Assembly: GCF_004138135.1 (NCBI RefSeq) | Contig: NZ_RYFD01000017.1 | Span: forward strand, 1-64,000 | Direction: 5' to 3' | Origin: Candidatus Oscillochloris fontis | GTDB lineage: Bacteria > Chloroflexota > Chloroflexia > Chloroflexales > Chloroflexaceae | Length of the DNA stretch: 64,000 nt | Shown here: positions 11,726-29,114 of the stretch, one piece after another | Layout of the letters: each line of letters begins with the position of its first letter | Numbering within the stretch: the first letter of the stretch is position 1 | Translations under genes and position numbers: made by a program | The notes under the pieces: model-generated | Told to the model about the DNA's origin: nothing | What the model saw: the letters and a program-made list of their open reading frames with translations, nothing else | The model's database searches: none

Positions 11726-12385
11726 ATGGATAGTATTGCCGTTTTGATTAGCGGGTCAGGCAGTAACCTGCAAGCCCTCTTTGATGCCCAAGATGCTGGT
11801 GAACTAGGCAGTGTCCATGTCAACCTCGTGGTGAGTGACCGCGCTGATGCCTATGGGCTTCAGCGCGCCCTCAAGCGCGGTGTGGCGGCTGCCCACGTCC
11901 CACTGCCCTCGGCACCCGCCGGAACCGCCCGCCGAGCGGTTCGCGCCGCCTGGGAGGAACGCCTGGCGACGGTAGTCACCGCCTTTCAGCCCGATTTGGT
12001 GGTGCTGGCCGGGTTTATGCGGATTCTCTCGCCGATCTTCTTGCAGCACTTCCCCGATCAGGTGATCAATCAGCATCCGGCGCTGCTACCGGCTGATGGC
12101 GGCGAGACGGTGCTGACCAGCACGGGGTTACACATCCCGGCGCTGCGCGGGGCGCATGTGGTTCCCGACGCACTCCGCTTGGGGTTGAGCATCACCGGCT
12201 GTACGGTGCATCGCGTCACGCCCCGCGTGGATGATGGGCCGATCCTAGCCCAAGCCGAGGTGCCCATCCTGCCCGATGATGACGAGAGCAGCCTGCACGA
12301 GCGCATCAAGATCGCCGAGCGGCAACTCATCGTTCAGGTGGTGCGCGAGTTGGCTACATCAAGTTCCCCAGCGGCCCAAGGTTGA
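11726..12385 (+). CDS. purN: phosphoribosylglycinamide formyltransferase
   Basis: Transfers formyl from 10-formyltetrahydrofolate to GAR. It begins with the family signature VLISGSGSNLQAL, and has LAGFMRILSP, the catalytic Asn/His in INQHPALLP, and the Asp of VDDGPILAQ. Between HPALLP and the next helix it is about 15 residues longer than the B. subtilis/E. coli pattern (the GGETVLTSTGLHIP segment). The start is the ATG aligned with the family N-terminus; an upstream in-frame start lies inside purD. Its 3' end overlaps the convergent gvpK by 32 bases, leaving no room for a separate terminator. Confidence 0.93.
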   Translation: MDSIAVLISGSGSNLQALFDAQDAGELGSVHVNLVVSDRADAYGLQRALKRGVAAAHVPLPSAPAGTARRAVRAAWEERLATVVTAFQPDLVVLAGFMRILSPIFLQHFPDQVINQHPALLPADGGETVLTSTGLHIPALRGAHVVPDALRLGLSITGCTVHRVTPRVDDGPILAQAEVPILPDDDESSLHERIKIAERQLIVQVVRELATSSSPAAQG

Positions 12386-12737
12386 GGTTCAGATCTTCGT
12401 TTTCTAGGCCGAAGACCACCTTCAACTCCAGGATGCGCTCCTCAAGGCGCATAAAGGTCTCGCCGAGGCGCTCGATCTCGGCATCGCTCACCGTACCACG
12501 CTCGATGCGGTGGAGTGCCTGACGCTCCATCAAGCGCCGCAGCAGTTCGATCAGGGTCAGAACCAGTTTGGCCAGACCCTGCTCGACCTCTTCAGGGTTG
12601 GCGTTGATCCGTTTGGGCAAGCCTGCGCAGGTACGTTCCAACTCAGCCGCAAAGACTTCAATATCTTCAGGGCGGTTGAGCATCTTATTCTGGATGCGTG
12701 CCAGGTCATCAAGAGCATCGGGGGCATCAGTAATCAT
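12354..12737 (-). CDS. gvpK: gas vesicle protein GvpK
   Basis: Accessory gas vesicle protein, last gene of the cluster. It has the GvpK pattern: an amphipathic N-terminal helix, a Pro-rich turn (LPKRINANPEEVEQGLAKLVLTL), IELLRRLMERQALHRIERGTVSD and a C-terminal helical coil. GvpK is required for vesicle formation in several organisms; its exact place in assembly is unclear. Two ATGs are adjacent; the second has GGGAG at a better distance. It overlaps the 3' end of purN on the other strand. Confidence 0.92.
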   Translation of the reverse strand: MITDAPDALDDLARIQNKMLNRPEDIEVFAAELERTCAGLPKRINANPEEVEQGLAKLVLTLIELLRRLMERQALHRIERGTVSDAEIERLGETFMRLEERILELKVVFGLENEDLNLNLGPLGNLM

Positions 12738-12752
12738 CATTACTCCCAGGGA

Positions 12753-13436
12753 TCAGGCTGGTGACACAAAGTTGTAGGCAGGCCAGGGGCCAGTACAGAG
12801 CAGGCGAATATCGGGGCGATCACGGCCAATCTCGGCCACTCCAGCCTGGAAGCGGGGCACATCCTCACGCGCCACCAGATAGGCCGCGCTCAGCACCATG
12901 CGCTCGGTGGGTAGCACCTTGCGGACACTCGCCACCGCATACTGGTCAAGGTGCGCATAGAGATCATCGGCGATCTGCTCGGCACGTAAGCGGCGCAGCG
13001 CGGCGGCCCGTTCCTCCACCATCCGCCGCTCGATATAGTCGCGGCCACTGCGCGGGCGCTCCTCAACCACGGCAGGTGGCGGCGGCAGATCAGTCCAGAT
13101 CGCGCGCAGACTAAGTTCAACCCGGCCCCGCACCTGCGCTAGGCCGGCCACGAACGAGGCACGCCGTTCAGCCAGCATCGCCAATACCGCAGCCTCATCG
13201 GCCAGGAACGTCCCAAAGCGCACTGGGAGCGTCCCACCCGCCTCAGCGAGCGCCTCAACCACCGACTCGTGGCGCCAGATATGGGACGCCTCGGTCGTCA
13301 CCTGTTGGGGATCAACCCGACTCACCACCGCACCAATCTCGCCATCCTGGTAGAAGAAGATCGGCTGATCGGCCAAGCCAACCCTCGGCAATGGCATCTC
13401 GCCGGGGCGATCAACAATCGCGTAGAGATAGAGCAT
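12753..13436 (-). CDS. GvpL/GvpF family gas vesicle protein (copy 3)
   Basis: GvpF/GvpL family: it begins LYLYAIVD, has DGEIGAVVSRV, LPVRFGTFL, RVELSLRAIW and ends LLCTGPWPAYNFV, the family C-terminal signature. In cyanobacteria and haloarchaea GvpF/L binds GvpA and sits on the gas-facing surface, acting early in assembly. It is one of three paralogues here, separated by GvpJ-type genes, so they may form a heteromeric assembly platform. Ribosome site GGAG about 9 bases before ATG. It lies 6 bases after the upstream gene. Confidence 0.92.
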   Translation of the reverse strand: MLYLYAIVDRPGEMPLPRVGLADQPIFFYQDGEIGAVVSRVDPQQVTTEASHIWRHESVVEALAEAGGTLPVRFGTFLADEAAVLAMLAERRASFVAGLAQVRGRVELSLRAIWTDLPPPPAVVEERPRSGRDYIERRMVEERAAALRRLRAEQIADDLYAHLDQYAVASVRKVLPTERMVLSAAYLVAREDVPRFQAGVAEIGRDRPDIRLLCTGPWPAYNFVSPA

Positions 13437-13442
13437 CGTGCG

Positions 13443-13661
13443 TCACTCCAGACGCGGCGTAGTGGGAGGATTGAGATGAGCGCCACGCATAAGCTCGATA
13501 TTATCTACCGAAGTGAGGATCACGCGCAACCCCAGATAGACCAGATCCACATCGGCCACCGAGAGCATAATATCTCCTTGGATCACCACACCCTTATCGA
13601 GAATACGATCTAGGAGATCCAGCAGAGTCAACTCCCGATCCGGGGAAAGAAAATCAGACAT
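13443..13661 (-). CDS. GvpA/GvpJ-family small gas vesicle protein (GvpS/GvpM-like position)
   Basis: A 72-residue GvpA-fold protein: LTLLDLLDRILDKGVVIQGDIMLSVADVDLVYLGLRVILTSVD matches the helix-strand-strand-helix core of GvpA. It differs from the major GvpA in lacking the EARIVIAG strand and having an N-terminal extension. Its position between GvpL-type genes and next to gvpK recalls gvpS of Bacillus megaterium, but GvpJ or GvpM naming is equally possible. Such minor GvpA-like proteins are thought to nucleate the conical tips. The start is the ATG with AGGAG 8 bases upstream; it overlaps the previous gene by 8 bases. Confidence 0.88.
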   Translation of the reverse strand: MSDFLSPDRELTLLDLLDRILDKGVVIQGDIMLSVADVDLVYLGLRVILTSVDNIELMRGAHLNPPTTPRLE

Positions 13662-14475
13662 GATCCGACTCCTGTTGGGGCGCAGCAGCAAAGCTGTAGG
13701 CTGGCCAGGGGCCAGTCAATTCAAAGCGGAAGCTGCTATAGTGCGCCACCAGAGCCTCAACTTCGGCTAAGAACTGATCAAACGTCGCCTCATCCACCAG
13801 ATAGGCACCACTAAAGATCAGTTCCATGCCATCACCAGCACTTTGTGAGACCGGGCCACCGGCGGTAGCGGACGCTTGCCCCGCGAGGCGGGCCTGACTC
13901 TCACAGACACAGATATTCGCCAACTGACGCGACTCCTGAAGAATCAGCGCATCGAGCTTCTTCTGGAGCATATAGGCGGCACCGCTCGACATCCGGTTGC
14001 GTTGCATAATCAGGTTGGCAACCTGATCGTTGTTGGTACGCACATATTCGGCCACCTGCTTGGGTTCGGCATAGATCTTGACCCCCCACTCACGCCGACC
14101 GCGTAAGCGTTCCAGGGCAGCCCGTAACATCGGGGCATTGGTGCGCAACATCGTGCGGACACCGGCCTCATCACGGAAGATCGTACCGAAGCGCAAAGGA
14201 GCAACCGGGCCAGCGATAGCAGCGAGCACCTCTTGGTGAGCGCGGACGCGGGGTTCGAGCCACGTCAGATCAGCCAGGCGTTCCTCCAACAATTCTGGGT
14301 CAAAGCGATCCACGGGCAATGGCGTCACCACCGCCCCCAGATCCCCCTCGCGCACACAGAGTACCGGCGCTCCTGGCTCAACCGCCGGGAGATCAGGAAG
14401 CGTCAACTCCTGCTCGGCAATCACGCCATAAACATAATAGACGAGCGCCGTAGACTCTTGGACGAGTGTCTCCAT
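13654..14475 (-). CDS. GvpL/GvpF family gas vesicle protein (copy 2)
   Basis: GvpF/L paralogue with VYYVYGVIAE at the N-terminus, GDLGAVVTPL, PLRFGTIFRDE, REWGVKIYAE and the C-terminal LTGPWPAYSFA. It is longer than its siblings (273 residues) because of an inserted Ala/Gly/Ser-rich segment around residues 190-205. GvpL proteins contact GvpA and other accessory proteins during assembly. The upstream ribosome site is weak, suggesting translational coupling to the gene before it. Confidence 0.9.
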   Translation of the reverse strand: METLVQESTALVYYVYGVIAEQELTLPDLPAVEPGAPVLCVREGDLGAVVTPLPVDRFDPELLEERLADLTWLEPRVRAHQEVLAAIAGPVAPLRFGTIFRDEAGVRTMLRTNAPMLRAALERLRGRREWGVKIYAEPKQVAEYVRTNNDQVANLIMQRNRMSSGAAYMLQKKLDALILQESRQLANICVCESQARLAGQASATAGGPVSQSAGDGMELIFSGAYLVDEATFDQFLAEVEALVAHYSSFRFELTGPWPAYSFAAAPQQESDHV

Positions 14476-14485
14476 AACCTATCAC

Positions 14486-14812
14486 CTAACTCCCTGTATC
14501 TGCATCAACCTCAATCGGTGGGGCCAAACGCTGCTCTAGCCGCGCCAGACGTTCACTCAACAGCTTATTCTCCTGCTCAAGGTTCTGAGCGCGAGTCGTG
14601 AGCTGCGGATCATTCTGCCACCAATTGATACCCATCTCGGCAGCCTTATCCACCGAGGCAATCAACAAACGCACCTTGATACTCAGTAACTCAACCCCCA
14701 CCAGCGAAATAGAAATATCACCGGCAATCACAATCCCCTTGTCGAGCACCCGTTCGAGGATGTCGGCAAGGTTGGTTGATTGGGTTGAATGCTGAAGACC
14801 ATATGATCCCAT
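14486..14812 (-). CDS. gvpJ: gas vesicle protein GvpJ
   Basis: A GvpA-fold domain (residues 13-65: LADILERVLDKGIVIAGDISISLVGVELL and IKVRLLIASVDKA) followed by a C-terminal coiled coil (LEQENKLLSERLARLEQRL). This layout, a GvpA core plus helical tail, is the usual mark of GvpJ, a minor component implicated in shell nucleation or tips. WWQND after the core is also seen in GvpJ-type proteins. ATG preceded by GGAAG. Confidence 0.85.
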   Translation of the reverse strand: MGSYGLQHSTQSTNLADILERVLDKGIVIAGDISISLVGVELLSIKVRLLIASVDKAAEMGINWWQNDPQLTTRAQNLEQENKLLSERLARLEQRLAPPIEVDADTGS

Positions 14813-14829: not shown

Positions 14830-15081
14830 CTAATCTTTGACCTGGGCACGATAGTAGCGATGGGTACGCTCATAACCCAGCATATCACCATTCGAGTCAA
14901 AACGGATCTGATAGGTTGCCAGCACATCGCTACTATTGGGAATGCGCCGCATCTCAACCATCTCCACCTCGATCATCCAACCGTCACCATCGCGTTTACA
15001 CTGCGACACCGTATCAACCGGCAAGCCCGTCATCGCTGCGAGGGTATCACGGGCGATCTTGATAACTTCTACTGCATTCAT
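14830..15081 (-). CDS. gvpO: gas vesicle protein GvpO
   Basis: An 83-residue protein with the GvpO pattern: an N-terminal helix (AVEVIKIARDTLAAMTGLPVD), then VSQCKRDGDGWMIEVEMVEMRRIPNSSDVLATYQIRFDSNGDMLGYERTHRYYRA. GvpO occurs in many haloarchaeal and actinobacterial gvp clusters and is needed for vesicle formation, possibly acting as a regulator or GvpF/G partner. It is placed between gvpG and gvpJ in a tightly packed operon. Confidence 0.9.
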   Translation of the reverse strand: MNAVEVIKIARDTLAAMTGLPVDTVSQCKRDGDGWMIEVEMVEMRRIPNSSDVLATYQIRFDSNGDMLGYERTHRYYRAQVKD

Positions 15082-15112: not shown

Positions 15113-15358
15113 TTAGCTCTGGCGTTGGCGCTCACGGGCGACACGCAAGCGCGCCAGCAGTTCCTCTTCGACCGCAAGATACTGCTCCTCGGTAATCTCA
15201 CCCATATCCAGACGTAACTCAAAGTCGGCGAGCTTCTGGCGGATACGCTGCGGATTATAGAGTTCATCCTCGGCCTGCTCGGTGATCTGTTCAGCCACCC
15301 AGAGCACCCCCTCTAGCGGGGCAGTGATCGGAAAGGTCAAGATACTAAGAAGGCCCAT
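15113..15358 (-). CDS. gvpG: gas vesicle protein GvpG
   Basis: An 81-residue protein opening MGLLSILTFPITAPLEGVLWVAEQI, the conserved hydrophobic start of GvpG, then an acidic amphipathic helix (ADFELRLDMGEITEEQYLAVEEELLARL). GvpG binds GvpF/L in haloarchaea. It starts 4 bases after the GvpF/L stop with its GGAG inside that gene, so translation is coupled to it. Confidence 0.93.
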   Translation of the reverse strand: MGLLSILTFPITAPLEGVLWVAEQITEQAEDELYNPQRIRQKLADFELRLDMGEITEEQYLAVEEELLARLRVARERQRQS

Positions 15359-15362
15359 AGAA

Positions 15363-16130
15363 TTAGCTCCAACTAACCGTCAGATTAACGAAATTATAGG
15401 GTGGCACCGGGCCAACCGACTTAAAGAGCATCCGCGAGCCAAATTGGGCATCAAGGTCGTGGATGGCGGCATCAAAGCGGGCCTCATCCTCGCGATTGAG
15501 CAGAAAGGCCGCATTGACCACCATGCGATCTGTGAGGATAGGCTGCGTAAGTAGCGCGTGGGCCAGAGGGCGCAACGCCGCGAGAATCTGTTCGCTATCC
15601 GCATCACGGCGTTGCGCAATCGCGGCTTCAACCATCTCACCCAAGCGAATCCGCTCGTAGTAGGTACGTTCGGCAGGTTTGCCAACGATACTATCACGCA
15701 GAGCGCGGATCGCCGGTTCTTGATCGGCAATCTCGCGGAAGAACTGCTCATCGGTCCAGAAGACCTTGAGGCCCAACTCGATCCGGCCATCGAGATCATT
15801 GATCTGGGTGGTGAAATCGTCATAGCCACGCACCAGGAGTTGATCGCGGATCGTCTCGACATCGGGGGCCACAATCCCGAAGCTGATCGGCAGCACCGTA
15901 TAGTGCTGCATCACCGCTTCAAGCACCCGCGTATGGGTAAGCATATTGCGGCGCGAACTCTCATACTCCTCACAGGGCGAGTCGCTCACCACCGCCGCCA
16001 AATCGCGGTAGGGGATGGTATAGACTTGTGGGCCATCCTCGTGGATACCACGTGCTGCAATCACCTGCGTCTCGGAGCAGCGAATGATCGCATAGAGATA
16101 TTTTCCAGTAGGCTGATCACTATCAATCAT
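15363..16130 (-). CDS. gvpF: GvpF/GvpL family gas vesicle protein (copy 1)
   Basis: GvpF/L member at the canonical gvpF position before gvpG. Motifs: KYLYAIIRC, RDLAAVVSDSP, HTRVLEAVMQHYTVLPISFG, RIELGLKVFW and the terminal SVGPVPPYNFVNL. GvpF contacts GvpA directly in the known systems. ATG preceded by GGAG. A large double hairpin separates it from the upstream unknown gene, so it may be expressed less than gvpA-gvpN. Confidence 0.92.
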   Translation of the reverse strand: MIDSDQPTGKYLYAIIRCSETQVIAARGIHEDGPQVYTIPYRDLAAVVSDSPCEEYESSRRNMLTHTRVLEAVMQHYTVLPISFGIVAPDVETIRDQLLVRGYDDFTTQINDLDGRIELGLKVFWTDEQFFREIADQEPAIRALRDSIVGKPAERTYYERIRLGEMVEAAIAQRRDADSEQILAALRPLAHALLTQPILTDRMVVNAAFLLNREDEARFDAAIHDLDAQFGSRMLFKSVGPVPPYNFVNLTVSWS

Positions 16131-16245: not shown

Positions 16246-16551
16246 CTAATACTCAAAAGTAAATGTAGAGAAGCCAGCAGTTGTGCCGGTTCCGGCATCG
16301 GCGTCCTTTTCCTTGGGCGCAGCAGGGCGTAGCTCACCATTCAATGCAGCCAACTGCTCTTCGACAAGATGAAGACGAGACTGAGCACGATCCAAATTGC
16401 GCTGCCAAGCGGTCACTTCCTGCTGGAGGCGGGCGCGTTCACCCTCTAGGCGGGTGCGCTCACCGGTCGGTGAAGCCTTGGTGTGCCCCGGTGGGCGGTT
16501 GCGCAGAGCCGCCCCCTCAGGGATCGAACGCATTGATGATTTACGAGCCAT
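16246..16551 (-). CDS. small coiled-coil protein of unknown function in the gvp operon
   Basis: Not recognised. 101 residues: a basic, Pro/Ser-rich head (MARKSSMRSIPEGAALRNRP), a central coiled coil of roughly 45 residues (ERTRLEGERARLQQEVTAWQRNLDRAQSRLHLVEEQLAAL) and an Ala/Gly/Thr tail ending FSTFTFEY. It is cotranscribed between gvpN and gvpF, so it is probably a vesicle accessory or surface protein. It could be a lineage-specific Gvp, but no family assignment is made. Confidence 0.75.
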   Translation of the reverse strand: MARKSSMRSIPEGAALRNRPPGHTKASPTGERTRLEGERARLQQEVTAWQRNLDRAQSRLHLVEEQLAALNGELRPAAPKEKDADAGTGTTAGFSTFTFEY

Positions 16552-16584: not shown

Positions 16585-17523
16585 TCACACACAATGGGTC
16601 GTGATCAGTTCCATCAAGAGACGCCGATGCTGTAGGCGCAGATCCTGATCACGGCTGGCAAAGGTGCGCTTCGATTCGAGAATATCGAGGCAGACCGCGA
16701 CAAAGCGCGGATCTTGGGTCGTCGGGCGCATTCCTTGAAGCGCCATAATACGCGCAATCATCATACCAGCCCGCATCGTCGGCATCTGAGTGAAGGCGCC
16801 CGTCTCCCGGTAGGCATGAATCAGGCTCACAACCCGGAGCGAGTCGTCGGGATCAATACCGGAGGCGGTGGCAACGATCATCGCCTCAGTTTCGAGATCA
16901 TAAAAATCGAGATCTATCGTGATCAGGCGATCATTCAGGGCGTCCTGAGTCTCATGCACCCCAGCATACTCCTGGGGGTTACTCGTGAAGATCGCACGGA
17001 ACTCTGGATGTACCCGAATATAGGATTCATCGCGGCTCGCGGTAGGCAGAACCAGCATACGCTCCTCAAGCACCGTGAGCAACACATTATTCGCCTCTGG
17101 GCGTGAGCGGGTAAACTCATCATAGATCAGGGTATACCCCTCACGACAGGCGGTTGTGAGGCGATTATCTACCCACTGCTGAACCGCATTCTCCTCGTAC
17201 TTCACCACCGAGTGGATGAAGCGATCCACCACCCGTCGGTAGCGATAGCCATGCTGGCCACCGATCAGGTCTGAGGCCGAAAACTCCTCATCACCGACAA
17301 TCAGCATGACCGGGCGGCCGATCTGGGCAGCAACATGGAGCGCCAGGGTTGTCTTGCCAGTCCCAGCCGGGCCACGAAAGTGGATCGGATAACCGGCTTG
17401 CAGGTAGATGACCGCACGCTCTGTCAGATCCTGGGTCGCTTGGGTGGCAACAAAACCGGCACTGGGGCGCAGAGCAATCGTAGCGCGGCTCTGCTCAGTC
17501 ATAGTACGTGCTGGGGCGGTCAT
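16585..17523 (-). CDS. gvpN: gas vesicle ATPase GvpN
   Basis: AAA+ ATPase of the MoxR/NorQ type in every gvp cluster. Walker A GPAGTGKTTL, IVGDEEFSASDLIGG, Walker B TLIYDEFTRS, sensor TSNPQEYAG and the sensor-2/lid region RDQDLRLQHRRLL are present. GvpN is thought to drive shell growth from bicones to cylinders. The ATG has AGGAA just upstream; an in-frame GTG 12 bases earlier overlaps that ribosome site. It follows the GvpC-like gene, reproducing the A-C-N order of cyanobacteria. Confidence 0.95.
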   Translation of the reverse strand: MTAPARTMTEQSRATIALRPSAGFVATQATQDLTERAVIYLQAGYPIHFRGPAGTGKTTLALHVAAQIGRPVMLIVGDEEFSASDLIGGQHGYRYRRVVDRFIHSVVKYEENAVQQWVDNRLTTACREGYTLIYDEFTRSRPEANNVLLTVLEERMLVLPTASRDESYIRVHPEFRAIFTSNPQEYAGVHETQDALNDRLITIDLDFYDLETEAMIVATASGIDPDDSLRVVSLIHAYRETGAFTQMPTMRAGMMIARIMALQGMRPTTQDPRFVAVCLDILESKRTFASRDQDLRLQHRRLLMELITTHCV

Positions 17524-17572
17524 GGGGTTCCTCACTGATCACGACAGGCAAACAACCATTCCAATTCTCGGA

Positions 17573-17638: not shown

Positions 17639-19585
17639 TTAATCGGACATACCGGCAAGGCTACGCGCCTGAACGATCCAATCTTCAACATTGGCCAGCC
17701 GTCCGGCATCACCAAGCGCCTTACGCAGATCCTCAGGGGTACTCAGCGCAAGTTGGATGTAGGTCGAGATCCCGGCGCGTTCTAAGCGCTGTTGGAGTGC
17801 CGGGCCAATACCGTGGATCGTGGTCAGATTATCACGGTAGGTACGGGTGAGTGGCAGATCAGCGGATTCCTCAGCCGCACGCGGCGACTTGGGGACGGTA
17901 TCGCCATGCAGGGTGAGCACCGCCGCACTCATTGCCTGATAGAGTGGCAGCATCTGACGCCGAACATCCTCGATCATCAGCAAGAAGATCTCGCGCTGCG
18001 CCGGGACGGAAGGCCAGGGCACCGCCTCCAACTCATGCGTCAGCATCTCGACATCATGTTGAAGTTCGCTCACCACCTCACCATAGTGTGTGCGCTCATC
18101 AATAGTGATCTGGTCAAGATGCGCGGTTGCCTTCGCCAAAAAGGGCTGAACCTGGGTCACCAAGGCGGAGACTAAGCCATGCAGTTGCTGCTGCTGGGCA
18201 TCATCATGCATCCCCTGTTCAAGCACCTTCAAGATCGCGGCACGTTTGGCCTGCACATCAGCAACAATATCCTCGTCGAGATCAGGTTGAGCCTCGGCTG
18301 GTGTAGCCTGAACCGTCTCGACGACGATAGGTTCAACCTCAGGGAGCGGCTCAGCTACCTCAGAAACAACCAGAGCGGACGCAGGTAGTGCAACTGAATC
18401 AGGCTCCGCAGGGGCGGATTCGGCTGGGGTTGGATCTGGTGCCAGCGAATTGGATGCAACCGCCGGTGCCGTTGGCTGGGGCGTGGGTGGGTAGGAGAGG
18501 ATCGCGGCCATACCACGAATACGCTCCTGGCGTTGGCGATACAACTCAGCCGCCTGAGCCGCCGCCATTTCAGCGCGCTGGGCTTGCAAGGTTGCCAGGT
18601 AGCCCATCACATCCTGACGCCGAGCGTGCAACTCAGTCACCCGCTGGGACTGGGCGGCGGTGGCACTTGCGTGACGTTCACGACTGATCGTCGTGATCAT
18701 TGAGGAGACATCATCATGCAACGCAGCCATCTCAGCCTCAAGCTGAGTACGCTGAGCCTGCGCCTGAGCGTCCAGATCCGCGCTATTGGTACGGCGCAAC
18801 TGGGCTACATCGGCACGTAACTGGGCCACATCGGCACGCAGGGCAATCATCGTAGCCTGAAGTTCTTCACGTTTAGCTTGCGTCTGGGCGTTTAAGGTCG
18901 CCCGTTCAGTTTGCAGCATCATGCGCACATCGGCACGTAGCGCAGCCATATTGGCATGAAGTTCTGCACGCTTGGACTGAGCCTGGGCAGAAAGATCATC
19001 ACTATTGCTACGGCGCATCGCCGCCACATCGGCACGCAACGCAGCCATACGCGCATCAAGCGCCTCACGCTGCGCACGCGCCATCGCCGCCACATCATCA
19101 CTATTAGCTCGGCGCAAGGTTGTCACCCCATCGCGCAAGGCCATACAATCGGCATACAAAGATTCACGCTGGGCTTGGGCTTGGGTAGCCAACTCAGCGC
19201 TATTGCTCTGGCGGAGGGCCGCCACATCAGCCCGCATCCCCATCACATCGGCACGCAGCGCAGCCATATTGGCATGAAGTTCTTCACGCTTGGACTGAGC
19301 CTGCGCAACCAGTGTCTCGGTATTGGTACGGAGCATTGTCGCCACATCATCACGCAACGCGGTACGGCCAGCCTGAAGCTGATCACGTTGGGCCTGGGCC
19401 TGGGCAGCCAAATCGGCACTGACGTCGGCGAGGGTATCCGCCACCGTCGCCTGCAACTCAGCGGCCTGGCGCTCAAGAAGTTGCCGCTGTTCAGCGACAG
19501 CCTGCTGCCGGGAGGATCGGTAGGCTTCGAGTTGTTGCTCGGCAGCCTTACGCACTTCGGCGGAACGGGAACGAGAAGCTCTCAC
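17639..19585 (-). CDS. GvpC-like protein: seven 33-residue-type repeats plus C-terminal helix-hairpin-helix
   Basis: Probable external scaffold of the gas vesicle. Residues 59-303 form seven tandem repeats beginning LxAQAQxxR; five are exactly 33 residues and two are 40 (33 plus one heptad, at 92-131 and 231-270). A 33-residue period is the hallmark of cyanobacterial GvpC, which wraps and stiffens the shell, and the gene sits between gvpA and gvpN as gvpC does. Beyond the repeats are another coil, a Pro/Ala/Glu-rich linker (about 370-440), a second helical region and, in the last 60 residues, a helix-hairpin-helix-like domain (IHGIGPALQQRLERAGI) not known in GvpC. At 648 residues it is three times GvpC's usual size. 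Start GTG with AGGAG. Confidence 0.75.
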   Translation of the reverse strand: MRASRSRSAEVRKAAEQQLEAYRSSRQQAVAEQRQLLERQAAELQATVADTLADVSADLAAQAQAQRDQLQAGRTALRDDVATMLRTNTETLVAQAQSKREELHANMAALRADVMGMRADVAALRQSNSAELATQAQAQRESLYADCMALRDGVTTLRRANSDDVAAMARAQREALDARMAALRADVAAMRRSNSDDLSAQAQSKRAELHANMAALRADVRMMLQTERATLNAQTQAKREELQATMIALRADVAQLRADVAQLRRTNSADLDAQAQAQRTQLEAEMAALHDDVSSMITTISRERHASATAAQSQRVTELHARRQDVMGYLATLQAQRAEMAAAQAAELYRQRQERIRGMAAILSYPPTPQPTAPAVASNSLAPDPTPAESAPAEPDSVALPASALVVSEVAEPLPEVEPIVVETVQATPAEAQPDLDEDIVADVQAKRAAILKVLEQGMHDDAQQQQLHGLVSALVTQVQPFLAKATAHLDQITIDERTHYGEVVSELQHDVEMLTHELEAVPWPSVPAQREIFLLMIEDVRRQMLPLYQAMSAAVLTLHGDTVPKSPRAAEESADLPLTRTYRDNLTTIHGIGPALQQRLERAGISTYIQLALSTPEDLRKALGDAGRLANVEDWIVQARSLAGMSD

Positions 19586-19660
19586 CGCACGTCTCCTTTG
19601 ACGAGATAGCAGATGATCCAGAGACTACACACGAACATCTTGATGGTCTCAAGTGGCGAT

Positions 19661-19710: not shown

Positions 19711-19926
19711 CTAAGCGGCGGCAGAGGACGATGCGGTTAGACCGACGGCCTCAGCATACTTGAGATACGTATCTACACCGGCGATGACGATGCGGGCCTC
19801 AACCGCGAGCAGCTCGATGCCCACCAAGGACACGCGGACCCAAGCGTCAATAACGATACCTTTGTCTAGGATGCGATCCACGACTTCGGCCAGGCTGCTA
19901 GATGCGTTGACCTTCTCGACTGCCAT
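19711..19926 (-). CDS. gvpA: major gas vesicle structural protein GvpA
   Basis: Forms the ribbed, gas-permeable shell that gives buoyancy. 71 residues with the near-invariant GvpA core: [61 protein letters not shown] lies 6 bases before the ATG, the strongest ribosome site in the cluster, fitting a highly expressed protein; an in-frame upstream start is not needed. It is the only canonical gvpA in the window and heads the operon. A 44-bp array of four 11-bp units lies about 84 bases upstream. Confidence 0.97.
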
Positions 19927-20115: not shown

Positions 20116-20826
20116 TTAGGCCACCTGTTCGGTACGCAGGATATAGCCATGGCGCGGAACGGTACAGATATGAACCGGGTGGCGCGGATCGGGTTCGATC
20201 TTCGCACGCAGATTCATCACATGCCAGCGAACCAAACCTGGCTCGGCTGTCTCAGGGGTATAATTCCAGACTTCACGCAGCAGACGTTCACTTGAGCAGA
20301 CCTCGTTGGGGTGGCGCATGAGGTAGCCAAGCAGATCAAACTCGGCAGGCGTAAGTTGGACCGGAGCGCCAGCGACTTCAGCTTGGCATGTGTGCAGATC
20401 GAGAGTCAGATTGCCTGCCCGTAGCACCGCAGTACGAGAACTGAGGTGGGGATTATTGGGGCTACGGCGCAACAACACCTTAATCCGAGCCTTCAATTCA
20501 CGCAGATCGAATGGCTTGGTCAGATAGTCATCGGCACCCTCTTCAAAGCCACGCAGACGATCTTCAATCGTATTACGTCCGGTAAGAAAGAGGATCGGCA
20601 CATCGGCCAGATTACTGCGGGTATGCAAGGTATGGCACAACGCAAAGCCATCCATTTTAGGCATCGCCACATCAAGAACGATCAGATCGGGGCGTTGGCG
20701 CTGGGCCATGTCCAGTGCCTCATCGCCATCATGGGCCATACGCACCGTATGCCCATCATCATAGAGTGATCGCCCAACCACCCAAAGCAGATCATCCTCA
20801 TCATCAACTAGCAGGATGTATGCCAT
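20116..20826 (-). CDS. OmpR/PhoB-family response regulator
   Basis: DNA-binding response regulator. The receiver domain (1-115) has the acidic pair in LLVDDEDD, the phospho-acceptor Asp in LIVLDVAMPKMDG, and TKPF with the conserved Lys. The C-terminal winged helix (about 135-235) has LTPAEFDLLGYLMRHPNEVCSSERLLREVW and RVHxxNLRAKIEPD-like text typical of the Trans_reg_C domain. The ATG has GGAGG 7 bases upstream and overlaps the preceding receiver gene by 19 bases, so the pair is translationally coupled. It is the likely binder of the 11-bp repeat operators that flank the operon. Confidence 0.93.
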   Translation of the reverse strand: MAYILLVDDEDDLLWVVGRSLYDDGHTVRMAHDGDEALDMAQRQRPDLIVLDVAMPKMDGFALCHTLHTRSNLADVPILFLTGRNTIEDRLRGFEEGADDYLTKPFDLRELKARIKVLLRRSPNNPHLSSRTAVLRAGNLTLDLHTCQAEVAGAPVQLTPAEFDLLGYLMRHPNEVCSSERLLREVWNYTPETAEPGLVRWHVMNLRAKIEPDPRHPVHICTVPRHGYILRTEQVA

Positions 20827-21203
20827 ACCCAAGCCTCCTGCTGTTGAGTCTCATCGGCAAACACGTGCTGGAGCATCGCTTGAACATCGGTACGCAAGAA
20901 GGGTTTGGCTAAAAACCCAACAAGCGGCACGTGGCTACGACACCAGTCCTCTTCATAATAGTAACCCGACATCATTACCATGCGGGTCTGTGGGCTGAGC
21001 GCATGGATCTGCTGGGCAAGATGAATCCCATGACTATCGGGCAAAATCGCATCAATGAAGGCTATGGTAACGTCATACTGCACGACAAAATCGAGTGCGG
21101 CAGCCCCCGAACCCACCGCAGTCACAGTCACACCATCGGCCTTCAACATACGCTCAAGCGCCCAACAGAGATCTGGTTCATCATCAATGATGAGAATATG
21201 CAT
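20808..21203 (-). CDS. stand-alone receiver-domain response regulator
   Basis: A single CheY-like receiver of 131 residues: IIDDEPDLCWALE, phospho-acceptor Asp in TIAFIDAILPDSHG, MMSGYYYEED and Lys in LAKPFLRTD. No output domain, so it probably acts by protein contact or as a phosphate relay or sink between the kinase and the OmpR-type regulator that overlaps its end. It starts 8 bases after the kinase stop. Confidence 0.9.
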   Translation of the reverse strand: MHILIIDDEPDLCWALERMLKADGVTVTAVGSGAAALDFVVQYDVTIAFIDAILPDSHGIHLAQQIHALSPQTRMVMMSGYYYEEDWCRSHVPLVGFLAKPFLRTDVQAMLQHVFADETQQQEAWVWHTSC

Positions 21204-22582: not shown

Positions 22583-22848
22583 ACCGATAATGACAATCTT
22601 CGTGTGTAATAGAAAGCAGCAATAATACCCTCTGGGATCAGTACCTCGTTCCCAAGAGTCCGCTGTGATCAGCGAACCCAACGACTACGTCCCCGATCAG
22701 TGCCGCCACAGTTCGTGCCTGACGGAACCCAGCCCAGAGCGAATCACACGATAGATCTGGTGTAGGGGCATCCAGTAGGGATGGTACGATCCCCCGCTTC
22801 ATCATACAATGCGTCAAGTGCAGGTAGTGAGTGCCTGAGGAGATGGCA
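22583..22848. other. divergent intergenic region, no gene seen
   Basis: Separates the kinase operon from the cobalamin-sensor operon. No open frame of note and no clear -35/-10 pair was found on the plus strand. GATCAGTGCCGCCACAGTTC at about 22696 only loosely recalls a B12-box, so no cobalamin riboswitch is called. GAGGAG at the right end is the ribosome site of the next gene. Confidence 0.5.
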
Positions 22849-24990
22849 ATGACCCAACCGACAAACGCCGTCACACCGCGAAGCGCCGTAGGCCCTTCTC
22901 TCGCCAAGCTGGTAAGCCACATCCCCGCCGAACAGCATTGGCGTCGTCAGGCTGATGAGCTGATCGTCATTGGTCGGCAGATGGAATTGATGGCACAAGA
23001 GCAGGGTCGCAGTGCACAGGTCATGCTGGGGACGCTGCGCTTCTCGCTCTTTCGGATGCACCAGGGACGGATCGCGCAGTTAGCTCCGTATTGCCAAAGT
23101 GTGACGGTCTATGGCGAGGCGGATGTGGCACCACCGGACATCCCTGGAGTGACATTCGTTTCGGTACCACCGGGCGCACCAATGAGCCAGGAGTGGTTCT
23201 TGGTCGTAGATAGCCCAGGGTTCTGGGGGGCGCTGATCGCGCATGCGAGCCAGGATCGGGCAGATGGAGGAGCGCGGCGGTATCTGTTCGATGGCGTACT
23301 AACGACTGATGAGCGCGTGGTAAGCCGGGCCAGCCTGCTCTTGAGCCTCGCGAGCGGGAAGGGTGCCACCGTCACCGCCGAGCGTGACGCGATGGCGAAC
23401 CAGGCGCGCTGGGGACACTTGTCCTACAGCCTCGTGACCCACCCGGAGGCGCATCGGCTCGAGCTGCTGGGCTGTCTGATTGACATGCCCGACATCCACG
23501 CGCTGCTCTCGATTCCTTCGTTTGGCCTCGACACGATGGGGCCAGAGGCGATGAAGGTGTTGCGACGCTACTGCGGAACCTTGGGCGAGGTTCTCTACCG
23601 TGCGGAGGGCACCACGCTGGTTCCGGTTGCCTGGGGGAATGCCCAGCGCCCCCCAAACCAGCCGATCAATACGGGTGCCGCTGGTCAAGCATTTACCAAA
23701 GGTAGCCTGATCCTGAATCGGCTCCAGCCAAGTGATCCTGAGCAGGCGCTCTTCAACAATGCCAACTCCATGTCGGCGATTCCGCTCTTTGTGAGTGGTT
23801 CACCGTGGGGGGTATTGTTGGTCGGTCAGCCTGAATATGATCCAGAGAAGTCGCTGACCACCACCGCAACGGTAGGGATTGCGGCCATGCTGGAGCAGGT
23901 GATCGAGGCAAACCCATCAGCCGCGATAGCACCAGCATCAGCGGCGGCACCGGCCTACACGCCGCCTGCGGCACCGGCCTACACGCCACCGGCGGCACCG
24001 GCCTATACGCCACCGGCGGCACCAGCCTACACGCCGCCTGCGGCTCCGGCCTACACACCACCGGCGGCTCCGGCCTACACGCAGCCCAGCCAACCGAGCT
24101 TCCCCAGCCAGCCGGCGAGTGGGGTCTTCCCGACCAGCCCAGCGACACCAGGAAGCCCAGCGGCTCCGCCCATGCCGATTATGCCATCGGCACCCACCTT
24201 GCCGCCCCGTCCATCAATTCTGGCACCGCAGCACAACCAGTCCACAACCTTCGGGCTACCGACATGGATGAAGGCACCTGGCCGCAGTGGGCCGGGGGGC
24301 ACAGGCCCGGCAGCCGCACCACCCGCCGAGGGGCCGAGTGTGCGCAGTTGGCCAGTATTGCGCCAGCGCCTCTTTAGTGCCTTGGTCGCCTACGACCAGC
24401 AGGCAGCCGAACAGGTCTGGAGTGAGGCGGTTGGGATCTACTCACCAGAGCAGATCTGTAATGAGTTGCTCACACCGGTGCAGGTTGAGATCGGGAACGG
24501 CTGGCACCGTGGCGAAGTCAGTGTAGCCTCCGAGCACTTTAGTAGCCGCTTCGTGCAGAGCAAGTTGCTCAGTCTCTTCAACACATCAACCGATCACATC
24601 AATGGGCCAACCGCAATTGTGGCATGTGCCCAGGGAGAGTTGCACGAGATCGGGGCGATCATGATCAGCCTCTTCCTGCGTTGGGGCGGATTCCATGTGA
24701 TCTACCTGGGGCAGAATGTGCCCAACTCGACCATCGAAGAGATGGTCGCCCAACTCAACCCACAGGTCTTGGCGCTCTCGGCAGCCACAGTTGCCGCCGC
24801 CAATGGCCTGATCGCCGCCAGCCAGATCATCGCCCAACTGCCAGCCCCGCGACCGTTCTTCATGTATGGCGGCTTCGCCTTCTGGGATCGTGACGATCTG
24901 CGCAATCGGGTACAGAATGGCTTCTACTTCCAGGGCGATATACGCCAAATCGCCCGCATTGTCGCTGAACAGATGAACCAGAACGCCTGA
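22849..24990 (+). CDS. DICT-GAF-cobalamin-binding sensor protein with CarH-type photoreceptor residues
   Basis: Predicted soluble sensor. The N-terminal 180 residues resemble a DICT sensory domain; a GAF-like domain follows (about 200-355: YRAEGTTLVPVAWG, MSAIPLFVSGSPWGVLLVGQP). Then comes a linker with six PAAPAYTP repeats (about 365-410). The C-terminal 210 residues are a helical cap plus Rossmann B12-binding domain. Key residues match the Thermus CarH light sensor: W552-H553 and E562-H563 (the Wx9EH motif; W131, H132, E141 and H142 in CarH) and the lower axial ligand H599 in GELHEIG (CarH H177). It carries no MerR DNA-binding domain, so output must go through partners. Start ATG with GAGGAG at 6 bases. 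First gene of a seven-gene operon. Confidence 0.8.
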   Translation: MTQPTNAVTPRSAVGPSLAKLVSHIPAEQHWRRQADELIVIGRQMELMAQEQGRSAQVMLGTLRFSLFRMHQGRIAQLAPYCQSVTVYGEADVAPPDIPGVTFVSVPPGAPMSQEWFLVVDSPGFWGALIAHASQDRADGGARRYLFDGVLTTDERVVSRASLLLSLASGKGATVTAERDAMANQARWGHLSYSLVTHPEAHRLELLGCLIDMPDIHALLSIPSFGLDTMGPEAMKVLRRYCGTLGEVLYRAEGTTLVPVAWGNAQRPPNQPINTGAAGQAFTKGSLILNRLQPSDPEQALFNNANSMSAIPLFVSGSPWGVLLVGQPEYDPEKSLTTTATVGIAAMLEQVIEANPSAAIAPASAAAPAYTPPAAPAYTPPAAPAYTPPAAPAYTPPAAPAYTPPAAPAYTQPSQPSFPSQPASGVFPTSPATPGSPAAPPMPIMPSAPTLPPRPSILAPQHNQSTTFGLPTWMKAPGRSGPGGTGPAAAPPAEGPSVRSWPVLRQRLFSALVAYDQQAAEQVWSEAVGIYSPEQICNELLTPVQVEIGNGWHRGEVSVASEHFSSRFVQSKLLSLFNTSTDHINGPTAIVACAQGELHEIGAIMISLFLRWGGFHVIYLGQNVPNSTIEEMVAQLNPQVLALSAATVAAANGLIAASQIIAQLPAPRPFFMYGGFAFWDRDDLRNRVQNGFYFQGDIRQIARIVAEQMNQNA

Positions 24991-28034: not shown

Positions 28035-28514
28035 ATGGCACGTTCGCAGCTTGTTCTCTCCGCCGCACAACTCCAGGAGCTACGTCAGCTCTTGGCGCAA
28101 TTTGGACAGCAGGCTGATGTGCGCTTCGCCTTCCTGGGCGATCTGAGCGGTCTGGATATTGTGAGTTGGGATGCCGAGAATGAGACCGATGTGGGGAGTG
28201 TCGCAGCACTCGCCGCCGGTGATATGATGGCAACCCTAGAGGTAGGACGTTTGCTGGGAGGCAAGCGGGCCTGCAACCTGATCGTACAGGAGCATGAAGA
28301 CCAGACTATTCTGATCTCGCGGGTTGGTGAGGCCCTCATTCTACTTGTCTCGACCTCGCGGGATGTACCGCTAGGCTGGTCGCGCTTAGCGATTAAACGG
28401 GCCAATGATCGCATCCTCGCAATCGTGGGGAGTGCGGCAATGGTACCACCTCCCGACGCGATCTCCGAAGATTTCGAGCGCTCGTTTGCCGCGCAGCTCG
28501 ACAACATCTGGTAA
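28035..28514 (+). CDS. roadblock/LC7 domain protein (MglB-like)
   Basis: 159 residues with a single roadblock/LC7 domain: ADVRFAFLGDLSGLDIVSWDAENETDVGSVAALAAGDMMATLEVGRLLG, LIVQEHEDQTILISRVGEALILLVSTS. In Myxococcus MglB, a protein of this fold, is the activating partner of MglA in polarity control. The gene immediately precedes an MglA-type GTPase with 15 bases between, the usual arrangement for a cognate pair. Strong AGGAGG ribosome site. Confidence 0.9.
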   Translation: MARSQLVLSAAQLQELRQLLAQFGQQADVRFAFLGDLSGLDIVSWDAENETDVGSVAALAAGDMMATLEVGRLLGGKRACNLIVQEHEDQTILISRVGEALILLVSTSRDVPLGWSRLAIKRANDRILAIVGSAAMVPPPDAISEDFERSFAAQLDNIW

Positions 28515-28529
28515 AACTGCGAGGCTGCC

Positions 28530-29114
28530 ATGTTTATCAACTGGGCTATTGGCGAACTCAATCTCAAGATCGTCTACTACGGTGCCGCGTTGAGTGGCAA
28601 GACGACCAATCTTCAGTATATTCACGCACGAACCCCAGCCAATTTGCGGGGGCGGCTGATCTCACTCAAGACTCAACAGGAGCGCACGCTGCTCTTCGAT
28701 TTTCTTCAACTTGAGATGGGGAAGGTGAATAACCTCAAACCCAAATTTAAGCTCTACACCGTACCGGGTCAGGTCTATTATGCAGCCAGTCGTCGGCTGA
28801 TTCTGCAAGGGACTGATGGGATCGTCTTTGTGGTTGACTCGCAGGCCGGGCGCTTGGCCGAAAACCAGGAGTCTTGGTTCACCATGGAGCAGCACCTGAT
28901 TGAACTGGGGTACGATATTAACACCTTCCCGATCATTGTGCAGCTCAACAAGCGCGACATGCCGCATGTGATGTCGGCAGCGGAGTTGCGACGCCAACTT
29001 GACGTGCTGAATCGGCCTTGTTTTGAGGCATCGGCACTGCGGGGGAGTGGGGTATTCGATACGCTCAAAGCAGCCATGAACGCGGTGGTAGCCCAGGTAC
29101 GACGCACGATCTAG
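28530..29114 (+). CDS. MglA-type Ras-like small GTPase
   Basis: 194 residues. P-loop GAALSGKT (18-25), switch II TVPGQVYY (78-84; Ras family DxxGQ is altered to PGQ as in MglA proteins), VVDSQ, the guanine-specificity motif NKRD (140-143) and EASAL. MglA switches between GTP- and GDP-bound states to set cell polarity, gliding or pilus placement. With the roadblock partners upstream it forms the probable output of the sensor operon. Chloroflexales filaments glide, so motility control is a reasonable inference, not shown by the sequence. Confidence 0.93.
   Translation: MFINWAIGELNLKIVYYGAALSGKTTNLQYIHARTPANLRGRLISLKTQQERTLLFDFLQLEMGKVNNLKPKFKLYTVPGQVYYAASRRLILQGTDGIVFVVDSQAGRLAENQESWFTMEQHLIELGYDINTFPIIVQLNKRDMPHVMSAAELRRQLDVLNRPCFEASALRGSGVFDTLKAAMNAVVAQVRRTI

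Follow-up and report, generated by a model that had tools for sequence, protein, structure and literature searches.

The window, a stretch of 64,000 nucleotides from the 4.46-Mb genome of Candidatus Oscillochloris fontis (Chloroflexales), encodes in the gvpC position of a gas vesicle cluster a protein that, judging by sequence profiles, very probably shares ancestry with GvpC and would be a divergent homologue of it. GvpC is usually treated as a belt that sets the strength of the vesicle. Here, the belt diverges freely, while a C-terminal tail domain of the helix-hairpin-helix (HhH) type is constrained almost as strongly as the shell protein. The tail finding is more general than the window protein alone. 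Our comparisons show that exchangeable tails are common on GvpC-like proteins, which suggests an additional role of the belt in docking or tethering the vesicle.

Genomic context of the gvpC-like gene

The minus strand of the window carries a complete gvp cluster, in the order gvpA, gvpC-like gene, gvpN, a coiled-coil gene, gvpF, gvpG, gvpO and gvpJ, followed by gvpL, a GvpA-family gene, another gvpF and gvpK. The following features were identified:

19711-19926, minus strand: gvpA, shell protein, 71 aa (the mechanical ORF extends to 19977)
19593-19599, minus strand: Shine-Dalgarno-like AAAGGAG, 7 bases upstream of the GTG, read in the sequence
17639-19585, minus strand: gvpC-like gene, 648 aa, GTG start
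16585-17535, minus strand: gvpN, AAA ATPase (TIGR02640, 372 bits)
15363-16130, minus strand: gvpF/L (PF06386)
15113-15358, minus strand: gvpG (PF05120)
14830-15081, minus strand: gvpO (PF05800)
14486-14812, minus strand: gvpJ-like, GvpA family
13654-14475, minus strand: gvpL/F (PF06386)
13443-13691, minus strand: GvpA family, GvpM/S-like
12753-13436, minus strand: gvpF/L (PF06386)
12354-12740, minus strand: gvpK (PF05121)

The position between gvpA and gvpN, claimed by a sequence-only reading of this DNA, is thus confirmed by both neighbours. The same reading called the protein oversized. This holds in comparison with Anabaena GvpC, which has about 193 aa, but not in comparison with the gvpC-position proteins of Chloroflexota and cyanobacteria, where 300-690 aa are common.

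A small coiled-coil protein with an aromatic residue at its end is encoded directly after gvpN (16246-16551, minus strand). Many gvp clusters of Chloroflexota and some of proteobacteria have a homologue at this position, and the protein has no family in Pfam or NCBIfam; it is a candidate for an unnamed Gvp protein. Immediately upstream of gvpA lies the gene of an OmpR-type response regulator (20116-20832, minus strand). About 18 further gvp loci of Chloroflexota contain close homologues (E from 1e-126 to 1e-63), usually in that same position (e.g. L052, L054, L056, L073, L145 and L193). Given this recurrence in gvp loci, the regulator probably controls vesicles.

The repeat rod and its relation to GvpC

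The gvpC-like gene encodes a long rod followed by a composite tail, with the following parts:

18500-19582, minus strand: amphipathic helical rod of GvpC-type repeats, about ten units (residues 2-362; AlphaFold and GvpC-repeat profile)
18665-19399, minus strand: seven strict repeats of 33, 40, 33, 33, 33, 40 and 33 residues (residues 63-307, 245 residues)
18284-18499, minus strand: Pro/Ala-rich linker, predicted disordered (residues 363-434; pLDDT <50 in 365-434)
17900-18283, minus strand: four-helix bundle (residues 435-562; AlphaFold)
17837-17899, minus strand: second, short disordered linker (residues 563-583; AlphaFold)
17648-17836, minus strand: HhH domain with a GIGxxxQQRL hairpin, the best conserved part (residues 584-646; AlphaFold)

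Seven repeats, five of 33 residues and two of 40, had been described at residues 59-303, and both their count and their lengths stand. The repeat motif is anchored at residues 63, 96, 136, 169, 202, 235 and 275. Self-comparison of residues 59-303 gave peaks at lags of 106, 73, 33, 66 and 40, with a mean BLOSUM62 score of 1.98 to 0.90 at lags 106, 73, 33 and 40. The self-similarity is far above that of shuffled sequences, whose maxima over all lags were 0.48 (500 plain shuffles) and 0.82 (11-residue pattern kept), compared with 1.98 observed. When aligned in the register of GvpC, the repeat-type rod begins at about residue 16 and ends at about residue 350, with about ten units, and the seven repeats are therefore its well-preserved core. 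The flanking units at residues 43-72 and 324-348 are the closest to GvpC among the units of the rod. Phe, Trp and Pro are all missing from residues 1-330. AlphaFold predicts two rod helices (residues 2-157 and 165-362), and the approximately 360 residues correspond to 54 nm at 1.5 Å per residue. A recent duplication of the repeats at the DNA level was rejected: only one 87-nt block was found (85%, lag 106), which indicates that the repeat array is not young.

To compare the rod with GvpC, we used a repeat profile seeded with the published Anabaena consensus (PMC9994262) and grown only with cyanobacterial proteins from gvpA loci. This profile matched the window protein with 15.6 bits (E = 2.8e-5), compared with -58 for the reversed protein, at most -20 for 20 pattern-keeping shuffles and at most -7 for plain shuffles. 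It matched the proteins of Chloroploca with 62 bits (E = 1e-19), G038 with 62 bits and G002 with 56 bits. The profile-profile search of the repeats against GvpC, which the sequence-only reading had proposed, agrees with homology. With hhalign, a family of 25 members matched Anabaena-type GvpC at 95.8% (E = 8e-9; controls at most 0.4%) and the tail-bearing rods alone at 82% (E = 1e-5; controls at most 0.8%); the match of the Oscillochloris rods alone was weak (at most 15%). In addition, TIGR02641 (gvpC_cyan_rpt) matches 4 of the 25 relatives (best E 9.6e-8). Neither PF01304 (cut-off 21 bits) nor TIGR02641 (18.8 bits) reports a match for the window protein. We did not accept this silence as proof against GvpC, because the two models also miss long cyanobacterial GvpCs; other gvpC-position proteins are likewise missed or barely reached. 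Repeats of 33-40 residues are found in the wider GvpC family (PMC9372576). The reading had left the choice between a convergent and a distantly homologous Chloroflexota GvpC. The repeat profile, hhalign and the TIGR02641 matches of the relatives speak for homology, and convergence was rejected on the profile evidence and the shuffle controls, although the repeats of the window protein itself are weak members of the family.

The repeats do not align better to an apolipoprotein-like family, an outcome that would have spoken against GvpC: PF01442 gives the window protein an E-value of 0.5 and 10.5 of 90 bits. This model matches 13 of the 25 relatives and also long cyanobacterial GvpCs, so such matches reflect a shared amphipathic 11-residue pattern. 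Kinship with apolipoproteins was rejected.

Cyanobacterial GvpC (Anabaena flos-aquae, P09413; PF01304, TIGR02641) is also composed of 33-residue amphipathic helical repeats and is encoded right after gvpA, and the window protein keeps Leu4 and Leu30 in nearly all units. The window protein differs from it by its 648 aa, its two 40-residue units, a rod free of Phe, the central loss of Arg19 and Phe33, and the long linker, bundle and HhH tail. In Anabaena GvpC, alanine mutants of L4, F11, L12, R19, L30 and F33 abrogated binding or stabilisation (PMC9994262). Among eight units of the window rod, L4 and L30 are each present in seven and L12 in three. F11 and F33 are absent from all eight, and R19 is confined to the flanking units at residues 286 and 324-348. 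Three of the six positions essential in Anabaena (Phe11, Arg19 and Phe33) are lost from the central repeats, and any contact with the shell must therefore differ from that of Anabaena. Position 52 of GvpA, where Glu is the modelled partner of GvpC Arg19, is Asp in all Chloroflexota GvpA seen and mostly Glu in cyanobacteria. As the central units have drifted far, we call the window protein GvpC-type, a distant variant, and not a canonical GvpC. In the published GvpC geometry, four GvpA correspond to 33 residues (PMC9994262); a rod lying on the rib over its whole length would thus cover about 43 GvpA subunits.

The bundle and the HhH domain

An HhH-like C-terminal domain had been proposed from the letters alone, and a confident model (pLDDT about 95) supports it. 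It is a small all-helical domain with a GhG hairpin, and it matches the N-terminal domain of RadA (Z 9.3, 1.5 Å over 60 residues, 25% identity); Pfam HHH_5 gives the tail 21.7 bits, below the 27-bit cut-off. For the four-helix bundle, the matches were generic (Foldseek best E 0.066; VIA Z at most 12.9, within the helical background). Since only common bundles are matched, no identity is claimed for this part.

By sequence, the HhH domain belongs to a class that also extends NuoE (9wqv), a Dinoroseobacter reaction-centre chain (8yy9), L21 and S2. The same class forms the tail of the phasin PhaH, and the PhaH model matches 11 of the 25 relatives. When the window's own genome was searched with this model, the best place was the tail of the window protein (E = 4.1e-7). 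NF045508 (PhaH) gives the window protein 31.7 bits of a cut-off of 250, over positions 141-232 of 234, i.e. the HhH part only. The L21-extension model scores the tail higher (42.4 bits), so these matches establish the HhH class and not orthology with PhaH. Full-length PhaH was found neither in the window's own genome, nor in four genomes reached via proteobacterial loci, nor in 142 more of that class. The net charge of the HhH domain is -2 in the window protein and -3 to +1 in its relatives, which gives no indication of a basic face for binding DNA. Acidic members occur elsewhere in the class as well; charge was therefore discarded as a non-discriminating test of DNA binding.

Distribution and constraint of the tail in Chloroflexales

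We searched 82 Chloroflexales genomes with the window protein and the GvpA family as queries, and the gvpA loci were then read. Where the sequence after gvpA was readable, the next gene nearly always encodes a repeat protein, and five builds were observed. The first contains repeats only (168-330 aa; Chloroploca G014-16, G001-3 and one cluster of G033). The second contains repeats, linker and four-helix bundle (G027, G028, G061 and G038), and the third adds the HhH domain to these (the window, G033-G037, Viridilinea G039/G040, G017, G021 and G029). The fourth is composed of repeats, linker and HhH domain (G030, G031 and L145, a MAG named Anaerolineae). The fifth is split: in G019, the 171-aa repeat protein is encoded apart from an 829-aa protein with linker, bundle and HhH domain, the gene of the latter sitting beside gvpN, and G022 is similar. 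Mapped on the GvpN tree, the presence of the HhH domain requires five changes, which implies several losses or gains of the tail and shows that vesicles can be made without it. Vesicles have been reported in 'Ca. Chloroploca asiatica' (PMC6180586), and among the genomes searched the genus Chloroploca carries the repeats-only form.

Within Oscillochloris, identity to the window protein is 79-93% for the HhH domain, 23-55% for the rod, 19-35% for the linker and 31-39% for the bundle. In Oscillochloris pairs, the HhH domains are 84-89% identical in amino acids versus 38-48% at fourfold sites; for these pairs, identity is 89-92% in GvpA and 77% in GvpN. Identical amino acids of the HhH domain use the same codon only about half the time, and synonymous sites are saturated. 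Because the amino acids were kept while codons and fourfold sites diverged, this conservation reflects purifying selection and not recent transfer. Among 14 HhH proteins, mean identity is 61% for the tail versus 31% for the first 220 residues, the tail being higher in 90 of 91 pairs, and the GIGxxxQQRL motif is kept in nearly all Chloroflexales tails.

The Oscillochloris genome G033 has two gvp clusters (L053 and L052), one with a tailed and the other with a tail-less GvpC-like protein, which makes it a natural within-cell comparison of the two forms. In four Oscillochloris loci (L052, L055, L056 and L057), gvpF comes immediately after the tailed gene, which has no adjoining gvpN. Between the GvpC-like gene and gvpN, a 240-aa protein (RRIRSAGRxSGSVEVTLP...) is encoded in L073 (9832-10560, minus strand) and also found in L053, L059, L062, L077 and L145. 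It has no Pfam match and was not found in the window's genome.

Tails in other lineages

In 31 of 61 cyanobacterial proteins at the gvpC place, a winged-helix-like end follows a Pro/Ala-rich linker; its Pfam matches (TrmB, MarR and related) are weak. These tails have a mean identity of 56% versus 36% for the rod, and the tail is higher in 147 of 150 pairs. Homologous winged-helix tails were detected in three Chloroflexota outside Chloroflexales (E = 3e-9, 6e-9 and 2e-4; shuffles at least 0.3). HTH_IclR matches the winged-helix tail of L191 above its cut-off, and EutK_C is the top match, a weak one, of the L188 tail. The long winged-helix proteins of cyanobacteria and non-Chloroflexales Chloroflexota (L103, L135, L095, L188, L191 and L192) resemble the window protein by their repeats, their Pro/Ala linker and a small C-terminal domain whose conservation exceeds that of the rod. 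They differ by a winged helix in place of the HhH domain, and no four-helix bundle was seen in them. Yet another C-terminal domain is present in the gvpC-place proteins of Pseudanabaena-type cyanobacteria.

Halobacterium salinarum GvpC, located on the vesicle surface, also has seven repeats (38-40 aa) and a globular C-terminal domain, which is a zinc finger, unlike that of the window protein (PMC9372576). In the open papers searched, we found no description of a GvpC with an HhH, winged-helix or helix-turn-helix domain.

GvpA-family genes were present in 57 of 400 sampled Chloroflexota genomes, in contrast to a 2020 statement that placed them only in Viridilinea-related species (PMC7332563). 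From sequence only, genes for Hsp20-like proteins and VAT-like AAA ATPases were also observed beside gvpA in the Chloroflexota loci L185, L186, L187, L190 and L192.

Possible roles of the tail

In the role that we propose, the rod would follow the ribs of GvpA on the outside of the vesicle and stiffen the shell, as Anabaena GvpC does. The disordered linker of about 70 residues would, according to the predicted structure, hold the four-helix bundle and the HhH domain off the shell. The tail would then attach the vesicle to a partner outside the shell, and each coat molecule would be both belt and adaptor. We give tethering or docking by the tail an even chance.

The sequence-only reading had suggested that the tail could join vesicles to one another, to the nucleoid or to the cytoskeleton. 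The closest precedent for such a putative linking role is PhaH, which coats granules: its N-terminal end binds the granule, its HhH tail binds DNA non-specifically, and loss of the protein disorganises the granules (PMC13052382). Like the window protein, PhaH of Caulobacter crescentus (NF045508) combines an organelle-binding part with a C-terminal HhH domain of the same class. However, it coats PHB granules and not gas vesicles, DNA binding is established for PhaH only, and the likeness covers the HhH part. EutK of the Eut microcompartments is also an organelle shell protein in which a small nucleic-acid-type tail governs organelle position, and its loss mislocates the compartments to the poles (PMC12487888); it differs from the window protein by its BMC-domain shell and its positively charged tail.

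Among the candidate partners of the tail, nucleoid DNA is the most specific one, but a protein is about as likely. The recurrence of distinct DNA-binding-type folds at one place favours DNA. The neutral-to-acidic charge of the HhH domain speaks against it, as does the position of the vesicles: in Viridilinea and further mesophilic Chloroflexales, they are found close to septa (PMC7332563), which is not a nucleoid-like distribution. Moreover, NuoE, L21, S2 and the reaction-centre chain carry the same HhH class with no known DNA role there. In a broader version, which we consider unlikely, GvpC-type proteins would be widespread organelle tethers whose exchangeable nucleic-acid-type tail anchors vesicles on the nucleoid or on some other scaffold for spacing and partitioning, as PhaH does with PHB granules. 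This tail would be an HhH domain in Chloroflexales, whereas the rest of the Chloroflexota and many filamentous cyanobacteria would use a winged helix.

Alternatively, the tail might be a putative assembly dock, which recruits accessory proteins such as GvpN, GvpO or GvpL/F or connects GvpC molecules at their ends. In Halobacterium, split-GFP experiments showed that the C-terminal domain of GvpC binds GvpN, GvpO, GvpF, H, I, L and itself (PMC9372576). The window cluster contains gvpN, gvpO and three gvpF/L genes, and the tail of G019 is a gene of its own beside gvpN. We nevertheless regard this role as somewhat unlikely, given that vesicle-making relatives that keep gvpN have lost or swapped the tail and that gvpN is not the adjoining gene in the four Oscillochloris loci mentioned above.

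That the protein is an ordinary GvpC belt, with a mobile HhH module acquired by chance and without a special role in the vesicle, appears improbable. HhH domains of this class are indeed common on unrelated proteins in these genomes and several lineages have no tail, but the HhH domain is the most constrained part of the protein and tails of other folds recur at the same place in other lineages. It is very improbable that the protein is not a shell belt at all but an amphipathic filament or coiled-coil scaffold beside the vesicles: although the divergent repeats lack the Phe and Arg contacts, relatives show an apolipoprotein-like pattern, and 'Ca. Viridilinea mediisalina', in which wavy filament sheets align with gas vesicles (PMC7332563), has a window-type protein (L058, L105), both the homology with GvpC and the continuous variation to the canonical repeats-only GvpC of Chloroploca stand against it.

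Coming back to tethering or docking, the free divergence of the belt next to a tightly constrained tail, together with the presence of different small tail domains at the same place in different lineages, makes a testable case for a coat that links vesicles to the cell. The phrase 'gas vesicle' is absent from a 2025 review of bacterial organelle positioning (PMC13052382). Tailed GvpCs would also offer natural anchor points for engineered acoustic reporters.

Other genes of the window

Two further observations concern the plus strand. About 8 kb from the gvp cluster, a Roadblock protein followed by an Arf/Ras-like GTPase (28035-29114, plus strand) forms an MglB/MglA-like pair, which is possibly a polarity or gliding module. 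Near the gvp regulators, a protein with DICT, GAF and B12-binding domains (22831-24990, plus strand) is a possible light or redox sensor.
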